64,000 nt of DNA. Origin: Hydrogenophaga sp. SL48 (GTDB taxonomy: Bacteria > Pseudomonadota > Gammaproteobacteria > Burkholderiales > Burkholderiaceae_C). Position numbers and translations under genes: made by a program. Where the stretch lies: NCBI RefSeq assembly GCF_021729865.1, contig NZ_CP063400.1, positions 3,658,001 to 3,722,000 of the forward strand, read 5' to 3'. How positions within the stretch are numbered: position 1 is the stretch's first letter; every line of letters begins with the position of its first letter. This document shows positions 35,428 to 40,301 of the stretch, piece by piece. The notes under the pieces are model-generated. The model made no database searches. It worked only from the letters and a program-made list of their open reading frames with translations, and had not been told where the DNA came from.

Positions 35428-35528
35428 GGTTTACCTCGAAAATCAACCCGAAAGTGTATGCGATGCCCCGCCTTGCGGTAGGCTTTGCCCGGTCCGGCAG
35501 CTCCCGGATGCGCACGGAGACACAAACC

Positions 35529-36287
35529 ATGGAAGTCCAGACAGCCGGCACCTCGCCCCTGTACCTGTTCGAAAAGTTCGAGGTCGGCGTGATCCATCTG
35601 GACGCCGGGCGCAACGTGGTGGCGATGAACGATTTCGCCCGCAAGGTGCTGCCGGTGGGTGACAAGCAGCCGTTCGACAAACTGGTCACCTCGTTCCACC
35701 CGGAGCGCTCCAAGCCCAAGGTGAACTTCCTGCTGGACCAGGCCGCGGGTTGTCCCATGGTCAGCTCCACGCCCATGACCATGATCATCAACATCCCCGA
35801 ACAGGTGCTGCTGATCAAGGTCACCCGGCTGGGCGACCACCTCGGCGCCACGACCGGCTTCGTGCTGGTGTTCTACGACGTGACCCAGGTGGTGAGCCAG
35901 GAAGCCCCGGCCACCGCCGAGCTGCCCGCGCCCGCGAACCTGCGGCTGCACCGCATTCCCATGGTGGCCAACCACAAGGTGTCCTTCGTGGACACCGCCG
36001 ACGTGCTGAGCCTGGAGTCGCAGGCCCACTACACCCGGGTGCTCACACGCGAGGGCTTTCATTTCTGCAACCTCAGCATCGGCGACCTGGAGGCCCGGCT
36101 CGACCCGGCGCTTTTCATGCGGGTGCACCGCTGCTTCATCGTCAACCTGCACGCCGTGGCCGAGCTCGGGCGCGAAGGCAGCAAGACCCATGTGGTGCTG
36201 AAAGGCAAACACCGGGAGCCGGTGCCGGTGGCGCGCGGCGACGTGGGGCGGCTGCGCGAAGCCCTGGGTTTGCTCGCCAAGCACTGA
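35529..36287 (+). CDS. rcoM: RcoM-like CO-sensing heme transcriptional regulator (PAS + LytTR)
   Basis: Regulator of 252 residues with an N-terminal PAS domain (about residues 10-125) and a C-terminal LytTR DNA-binding domain (about 150-250). In RcoM of Burkholderia xenovorans heme is held by H74 with C94 in the ferric form and M104 in the ferrous form. The same blocks occur here: FHPERSK (H57), GCP (C75) and MTMIINIP (M85), with spacings of 18 and 28 instead of 20 and 30. The LytTR part has LRVHR-like FMRVHRCFIVNL. The ATG at 35529 gives MEVQTAGTSPLY; the frame upstream adds 25 residues without support. It precedes the cox genes, divergent from ychF, so it most likely activates cox in response to CO. 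The symbol is by analogy. Confidence 0.85.
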   Translation: MEVQTAGTSPLYLFEKFEVGVIHLDAGRNVVAMNDFARKVLPVGDKQPFDKLVTSFHPERSKPKVNFLLDQAAGCPMVSSTPMTMIINIPEQVLLIKVTRLGDHLGATTGFVLVFYDVTQVVSQEAPATAELPAPANLRLHRIPMVANHKVSFVDTADVLSLESQAHYTRVLTREGFHFCNLSIGDLEARLDPALFMRVHRCFIVNLHAVAELGREGSKTHVVLKGKHREPVPVARGDVGRLREALGLLAKH

Positions 36288-36354: not shown

Positions 36355-36402
36355 TTCGTGCACCGGCACGCGCAGTTCGTGCAGAAATCCGGGCGTTTGA
36401 TG
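36355..36402 (+). promoter_or_regulatory. Three TTnnnG direct repeats at 21-bp spacing, putative RcoM operator of the cox operon
   Basis: TTCGTG at 36355-36360, TTCGTG at 36376-36381 and TTGATG at 36397-36402 lie exactly 21 bases apart, so they face the same side of the helix. The first two extend to TTCGTGCA. RcoM and other LytTR proteins are known to bind direct repeats of this form, and TTnnnG triplets are reported for RcoM. The third copy resembles a -35 hexamer (TTGATG), as expected for an activator site overlapping the promoter. No good -10 was found at 17-18 bases. The site is between the rcoM stop and the coxM start. Confidence 0.65.
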
Positions 36403-36509
36403 GGCCCCCGGGCCCAAGACCCGACGATGGCGTCGGAATCAGGGTCTCCCCCAGACTGGGTCGTCGTTGACAAATGTCAATCGCGCCACCCCATCCAGAG
36501 GAGACAAGC

Positions 36510-37373
36510 ATGATTCCACCGCGTTTCGAGTACCACGCGCCGACCTCCGTCGGCGAGGCCGTGGCCCTGCTGGGCCAGCTCGGCTCCGAGGCCAAGCTGC
36601 TGGCCGGCGGCCACAGCCTGCTGCCCATGATGAAGCTGCGTTTTGCCGAGCCGGCGCACCTGATCGACATCAACCGCATCCCCGAGCTGCGCGGCATCCG
36701 GGAAGCCGGCAACACCGTGGTGATCGGCGCGATGACGACCGAGAACGAGCTGATCAACTCGCCGGTGGTTCAGGCGAAGCTGCCGCTGCTGGCCGAGGCC
36801 GCGAAGCTGATCGCCGACCCGCAGGTGCGCAACCGCGGCACCATCGGCGGCGACATCGCCCACGGCGACCCGGGCAACGACCACCCGGCGCTCTCCATCG
36901 CCATCGAAGCCTCCTTCGTGCTCGAAGGCCCGAATGGCCGCCGCACCGTGGCCGCCGACGGCTTCTTCCTCGGCACCTACATGACGCTGCTGGACGAGAA
37001 CGAGGTGATGGTCGAGATCCACGCCCCGGCGTTCGCACAGGGCACCGGCTGGGCCTACGAAAAACTCAAGCGCAAGACCGGTGACTGGGCCACGGCCGGC
37101 TGCGCGGTGGTCATGCGCAAGAGCGGCAACACGGTGAGCCATGTGCGCGTCGCGCTGACCAACGTGGCGCCCACCGCCCTGCGCGTGGAAGCCGCCGAAG
37201 CCGCGCTGCTCGGCCAGGCCTTCACGCCCGCCGCCGTGCAGGCCGCCGCCGACGCGGCCATCGCCCTCTGCGAACCCGCCGAAGACCTGCGCGGCGACAT
37301 TGAATACAAGACCGCCATGGCCGGCGAGATGGTCAAGCGGGCCCTGGCCAAGGCCTGGGCCCGCTGCGTTTAA
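36510..37373 (+). CDS. coxM: Aerobic CO dehydrogenase medium subunit (FAD-binding)
   Basis: Flavoprotein subunit of the molybdenum CO dehydrogenase, which passes electrons from the 2Fe-2S clusters to FAD and then to quinone. The 287-residue protein has the FAD motifs AGGHS at residues 32-36 and TIGGD at 111-115, at the same numbering as described for CoxM of Oligotropha. [20 protein letters not shown] and [10 protein letters not shown] are family blocks. ATG at 36510 is preceded by AGAGGAGA. It starts the coxMSL order, 15 bases before coxS. Confidence 0.95.
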
Positions 37374-37388
37374 ACACAGGAGACACCC

Positions 37389-37874
<486 letters not shown>

Positions 37875-37889
37875 TCAGGAGAACACCAC

Positions 37890-40301
<2,412 letters not shown>

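Follow-up and report, generated by a model that had tools for sequence, protein, structure and literature searches.

Direct repeats between an rcoM-like gene and coxMSL in Hydrogenophaga sp. SL48 as a probable RcoM operator

The stretch of 64,000 nucleotides from Hydrogenophaga sp. SL48 analyzed here (the window) carries an RcoM-like regulator gene directly upstream of an aerobic CO dehydrogenase (cox) operon, and the spacer between them raises the question of whether the regularly spaced TTnnnG boxes that it contains form an operator and, if so, for which protein and with which effect on the cox genes. An initial annotation had placed TTCGTG at 36355 and 36376 and TTGATG at 36397, with spacings of 21 and 21 bases, and a regulator gene 68 bases upstream; the sequence confirms all of this, the stop codon of that gene ending at 36287 and box 1 starting at 36355. 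From sequence comparison, the RcoM encoded by the adjacent upstream gene very probably has its operator in these boxes, through which it would activate coxMSL in its CO-bound form. The case is built on the boxes themselves, their spacing, their conservation, their link to rcoM, and their register with a -10-like hexamer, all of which are observed.

The predicted controlled genes, coxMSL (36510..40301), lie on the forward strand and comprise coxM (36510-37373), coxS (37389-37874), and coxL (37890-40301), each identified by its Pfam domains. For coxL, the curated model of the aerobic CO dehydrogenase large subunit, TIGR02416, scores 1559 bits for a cut-off of 991, and the protein contains AYRCSFR, which we take to be the form I motif. 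The cox cluster looks patchy within the genus, a coxM match at E <= 1e-90 being found in 0 of 4 other same-genus genomes, in each of which few candidates were scored.

The upstream gene (35529..36287, forward strand) encodes a PAS-LytTR protein of 252 aa. Pfam assigns LytTR to residues 150-246 (E 9e-18, above the cut-off) and PAS_4 at E 9e-4, below the cut-off. Its H57, C75, and M85 align with H75, C95, and M105 of the Paraburkholderia aromaticivorans protein, against which, rather than against the P. xenovorans sequence, the comparison was made; these three positions are one residue off His74, Cys94, and Met104 of RcoM-1. M85 is invariant in the alignment (36/36), and H57 and C75 are kept in at least 90%. 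His74 and Cys94 are presumably heme ligands of RcoM-1. Met104 is likewise presented as a heme ligand of RcoM-1 in the title of a reference listed in PMC9670170. The predicted structure, with a mean pLDDT of 72 and low values in parts of the first half, gives good matches to LytTR structures, its C-terminal half matching those of AgrA and ComE, and less good ones to PAS structures, including heme PAS domains; a search of solved structures by sequence gave no match at E 0.01. Judged by its LytTR and PAS domains, its His/Cys/Met ligand positions, and the structure model, the predicted product is RcoM-like, in agreement with the RcoM-like gene initially annotated. Autoregulation of rcoM was considered and set aside, none of the TTnnnG pairs at 21 bp in the window (12 on the forward and 18 on the reverse strand) lying in 35428-35528.

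Box 1 (36355..36362) and box 2 (36376..36383), both TTCGTGCA on the forward strand, are strong and kept in relatives, and box 3 (36397..36404, same strand), TTGATGGG, is weak; 13 bases separate neighboring octamers. A matrix trained on 68 relatives, window excluded, ranks boxes 1 and 2 as the two best of the 214 spacer positions and box 3 as the third, the latter with 0.3 versus 14.3 bits. The half-site extends beyond TTnnnG to TTCGTGCA, of which box 3 is a degenerate copy. Across both strands of the 64-kb window, where TTnnnG occurs 598 times on the forward and 740 times on the reverse strand, the triple at 36355 is the sole one with 21/21 spacing, and 36355/36376 is the only TTCGTG pair at 21 bp. 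Boxes 1 and 2 agree fully with the published RcoM1 half-site TTCNNGCA, with 13-bp gaps, and box 3 with 3 of its 6 specified bases. That RcoM uses triplet sites, as the initial annotation had stated, is corroborated by an excerpt of PMC11347149, which quotes for RcoM1 three copies of TTCNNGCA separated by 12-13 bp; operators of this kind (RcoM1 type) are thus already known.

To assess conservation, one genome was searched for each species; this yielded 69 rcoM relatives, 68 of which have coxM downstream. The exception (L063), a MAG named as Thiomonas, holds an rcoM relative at 64% identity and shows no coxM, coxS, or coxL match within 4 kb on either side. Leaving it out, the window and 68 relatives provided 69 spacers, 182 to 998 bases long. 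When all spacings from 15 to 30 were tried, the best TTCGTGCA-like pair stood at exactly 21 bp in 65 of the 69 and at 30 bp, the edge of the tested range, in the other 4; a TTnnnG pair at exactly 21 bp was present in 64/69. The strict pair TTC[AG][AT]GC at 21 bp occurs on the coding strand of 43 of the 68 relatives' spacers (one more has it at 20 bp), never on the opposite strand of these spacers, and has no occurrence with 21-bp spacing in the remaining 498 kb of the relatives' loci. Boxes 1 and 2 are rich in column information, as is the C that stands two positions upstream of the last base preceding each of them; much of the gaps is poor in it. Among 11 Hydrogenophaga-like spacers, identity reaches 94% in box 1 and 87% in box 2 versus 61% and 64% in gaps 1 and 2; the TT/G columns of box 3 are 85% identical in these 11 spacers and 48% identical over all 69, near gap level (43-48%). 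Since the spacers are related (their effective number as independent sequences is about 25), this conservation partly reflects descent. With near-identical copies of the first set excluded, 25 further loci divide into 13 whose best pair is spaced by 21 bp and 12 in which it is spaced by 20 bp, both spacings being about two helical turns. Conservation of the boxes in related intergenic regions, on which the initial interpretation had been made to depend, is therefore what was found, boxes 1 and 2 being more conserved than the gaps; the exact 21-bp spacing holds in 65/69 spacers and gives way to 20 bp in 12 of the 25 further loci. As the boxes are conserved in relatives, the regulator is RcoM-like, and an RcoM1 triplet is published, the interpretation of the boxes as an RcoM operator appears supported at the sequence level.

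How the boxes relate to the promoter can be approached from a predicted -10 hexamer, CAGACT (36452..36457, forward strand), which lies at a fixed distance from the boxes, 47 bp past the end of box 3, and predicts a start near 36464. Most relatives have a -10-like hexamer reading TACACT, AATACT, or TATAGT, compared with which CAGACT is a poor -10, and no sigma-70 consensus promoter was found in the window's spacer; the predicted promoter is one with a weak -10 and no recognizable -35 box. Of the 69 spacers, 55 have a strict TTnnnG in slot 1, 65 have one in slot 2, and 25 have one in slot 3; 13 have it in all three slots and 64 in two or more. The occurrences in register total 145, compared with at most 9 off register. 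Of the three TTnnnG boxes claimed at the outset, two are thus strong and kept, and the third is weak. When the whole downstream region was searched, a TATAAT-like hexamer lay 53-55 bp past the slot 3 position in 47/69 spacers and 34 bp past it in 14 Thiomonas-like ones. The first register, in which the Thiomonas-like hexamer was 20 bp closer, was replaced by a shift of one slot, after which these spacers have a CTGATG-like slot 1 (12/14 fit YTnRTG), strict TTnnnG in slots 2 and 3 (14/14), and the hexamer 55 bp on. This shift was chosen after the distances were known, so the in-register totals lean towards it, and because the choice of hexamer was confined to 94-99 bp, its occurrence at 95-97 bp in 69/69 spacers is no evidence alone. 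In a less circular test on 90 loci, which used only the coxM start to locate the hexamer, the first strong box lies 94-98 bp from it in 52 loci, 74-78 bp in 21, and elsewhere in 17; 73 of 90 loci are hence in register, versus a mean of 11.2 and a maximum of 22 for random positions, and five permuted hexamers placed 9-34 loci in the register bins. On the basis of these controls, the slots seem largely fixed relative to the -10-like hexamer, the strong pair falling in slots 1-2 in most lineages and in slots 2-3 in others. No description of this register or of the slot shift was found in the literature searched, which had the main RcoM papers outside its scope, and we place little weight on novelty.

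The uneven occupancy of the slots bears on whether all three belong to the operator. The working operator could be the strong doublet only, with a single RcoM dimer on boxes 1 and 2 and a third TTnnnG that is an in-register relic or an accident: slots 1 and 2 are strictly filled far more often than slot 3, TTnnnG is absent from slot 3 and from one base to either side of it in all 29 Limnohabitans-like spacers, and PxRcoM is described as a homodimer in an excerpt of PMC9670170. We nevertheless regard this as unlikely, given that slot 3 carries TTnnnG in all 14 Thiomonas-like spacers, that it ranks third among the window's 214 positions, that some distant loci, such as L138, have three good boxes, and that CoxC needs all three of its repeats (PMC11347149, in excerpt).

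Coming back to an operator of RcoM, we infer binding, CO dependence, activation as the direction of control, and the start site. CO would replace Met85 on the heme of the PAS domain, the alignment suggesting His57 as the other ligand, and the LytTR domains of the CO-loaded dimer would then have strong contact with boxes 1 and 2 and weak contact with box 3, the three sites lying two turns apart on the same side of the DNA. The boxes would be centered near -105, -84, and -63 from the predicted start at about 36464, upstream of the promoter, from where RcoM may contact RNA polymerase and thereby activate coxMSL. These positions and the lack of a sigma-70 consensus make the layout fit an activator that recruits RNA polymerase, and, according to excerpts of PMC11347149, RcoM1 is an activator whose binding site precedes the -35 region. 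Like RcoM-1 of Paraburkholderia xenovorans LB400, the window has a PAS-LytTR regulator beside aerobic cox genes and the repeated half-site TTCNNGCA, which in LB400 has gaps of 12-13 bp (PMC11347149, in excerpt); unlike in LB400, the third repeat is degenerate. In P. aromaticivorans, which together with Afipia carboxidovorans served as a positive control, the gene for an RcoM-like protein of 35% identity runs divergently from ompW and coxMSL, with the triplets TTCGCGCA-21-TTGATGCA-21-TTCAGGAA before ompW and TTAACGTA-21-TTCGTGCA-20-TTCGAGAA before coxM. Canonical LytTR sites, such as those of AgrA and ComE, also consist of direct repeats about two turns apart, but of two 9-bp repeats at 10-13 bp instead of three (PMC11347149, in excerpt).

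A closer parallel in number of repeats is the CoxC operator at PcoxB of Afipia carboxidovorans OM5, where, according to excerpts of PMC11347149, three direct repeats TTNNNGCN with two-turn spacing are read by a LytTR protein. In this species we found TTCATGCG-21-TTGGTGGA-20-TTTGGGCA, 309 bp before the annotated start of a "transporter" gene that we take to be coxB; the published ones are no more than 282 bp away from the coxB start, and depending on which coxB start is right, the two are likely the same. CoxC is a repressor (PMC11347149, in excerpt), which lends some plausibility to a scheme in which the boxes serve repression, RcoM blocking the promoter until released by CO. Yet the same excerpts describe CoxC as a membrane MHYT sensor whose repeats overlap the -35 box, whereas in the window the sensor is of the PAS heme type and the predicted -10 lies well downstream of the boxes: neither an MHYT-LytTR regulator nor repeats overlapping a -35 box is found there, the -10 being itself a prediction. 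As the array is clear of the -35 region, box 3 ending 47 bp before the predicted -10, as the regulator is PAS-LytTR, and as the lack of a sigma-70 consensus is expected of an activated promoter, we hold repression to be very unlikely.

On the link between the boxes and rcoM, 47 further coxM loci were collected with coxM rather than rcoM as the query (30 of 39 coxM places were fetched in one search). The best pair scores 18-24 in the 29 loci with rcoM directly upstream on the same strand versus 14.5-20 in the 14 with none in the locus, the rest of the genome aside (Mann-Whitney p = 1.5e-7, loci treated as independent). The two ranges overlap, 3 of the 29 scoring at or below the highest of the 14, and 8 of the 29 rcoM spacers are near-identical to members of the first spacer set. 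L117, L118, L160, and L161, with an inverted or partial rcoM match, belong to neither group (scores 19.0, 21.5, 19.0, and 20.0). Imperfect controls among the 14 are L128, L129, and L155, with only 200-439 bases upstream, L137, with a run of 100 N, and the distant L120 and L121 (43% CoxM); the remaining 8, a subset picked after scores were known, reach at most 17.0, versus a minimum of 18.0 in the 29. Among 150 family genomes, an rcoM match better than 1e-50 occurs in 11, and coxM adjoins it in 11/11. One of the coxM loci without rcoM (L158) has an upstream gene for an MHYT-type membrane protein, as seen from motifs by eye, perhaps a CoxC-like sensor. Binding of the boxes by a different LytTR protein or other factor, rcoM being nearby incidentally, could appeal to the one genomic match to the RcoM-like protein besides itself (2 matches at E <= 0.001), and it is most improbable in view of box pairs that track rcoM across loci and agree with the published RcoM1 half-site (PMC11347149, in excerpt). 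Hardly credible at all is a chance pattern: a bare TTnnnG triple arises in 0.8% of first-order Markov spacers of equal length at 20-22 bp spacing and in 0.135% of 20,000 at 21/21, but a TTCGTG pair at 21 bp arises in 0 of 20,000, and the boxes are conserved across the set of 69 spacers and linked to rcoM. Against the operator reading itself stand the 17 of 90 loci off register, the weak box 3 and the strict filling of all three slots in no more than 13 of 69 spacers, the poor -10 hexamer of the window, the overlap of scores, and the relatedness of the spacers.

These elements can be joined, tentatively, into a fuller reading of the RcoM operator, which is possible and would be less than an even bet: three fixed slots two helical turns apart, about 54, 75, and 96 bp before the -10, would hold the strong pair in slots 1-2 or 2-3 according to lineage, the slot left over having degenerated into a weak box still in register. 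The strong pair would be gripped by a single RcoM dimer, and the CO threshold would be set by an additional subunit or dimer at the weak slot. In the window's lineage, oxygen would exert further control through a second site, of FNR type, at the start. The locus offers a sequence-defined predicted operator and promoter, with testable geometry, for the control of CO dehydrogenase in Hydrogenophaga-like and related bacteria, and the one-slot shift among lineages may serve as a natural experiment on a dimeric regulator reading three repeats. The signature TTCGTGCN-N13-TTCGTGC between rcoM and coxM could further serve as a predictor of cox operons under RcoM control in genome sequences.

Beyond the cox site, which is one of 7 places with the exact pair pattern in the 5.43-Mb genome, there may be further targets. 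Four of the other 6 (L100-L103) lie in open frames with a third-position G+C of 0.84-0.91; the value is 0.79 for L105, and the non-coding cox site likewise has a 236-codon open frame at 0.79, so L105 and L106 are not assignable as coding by open frame. Allowing one mismatch, the genome holds 60 + 47 matches versus 24 + 31 for a reversed control.

At the RNA level, Rfam gave one match, below threshold and on the opposite strand inside coxM, no terminator was found, and neither the box region (z 0.82) nor the leader (z -0.49) folds better than shuffled sequence. An inverted repeat, CCCGAC-N6-GTCGG, occupies the place of a -35 box at 36420-36436; the folding of the 36421-36436 dyad is modest relative to shuffles (z -1.53), and a loose pattern finds such a dyad in 17/69 spacers. 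At 36463-36473, GTCGTTGACAA fits the motif GTCNTNGACAA, which lies about 12 bp past the first base of the -10 hexamer and occurs in 24/69 spacers and also in L115 and L128, loci without rcoM and without a box pair. Lastly, the palindrome TTGACAAATGTCAA at 36467-36480 (predicted +4 to +17) is what we take to be an FNR/Anr-like palindrome. TTGACNNNNGTCAA occurs at 14 genomic places (reversed control, 0), and among 8 of these that were inspected, one (L164) stands just before a gene that by eye looks like ccoN of a cbb3 oxidase; TTGA[CT]N4[AG]TCAA is found in the last 90 bases of 14/69 spacers.
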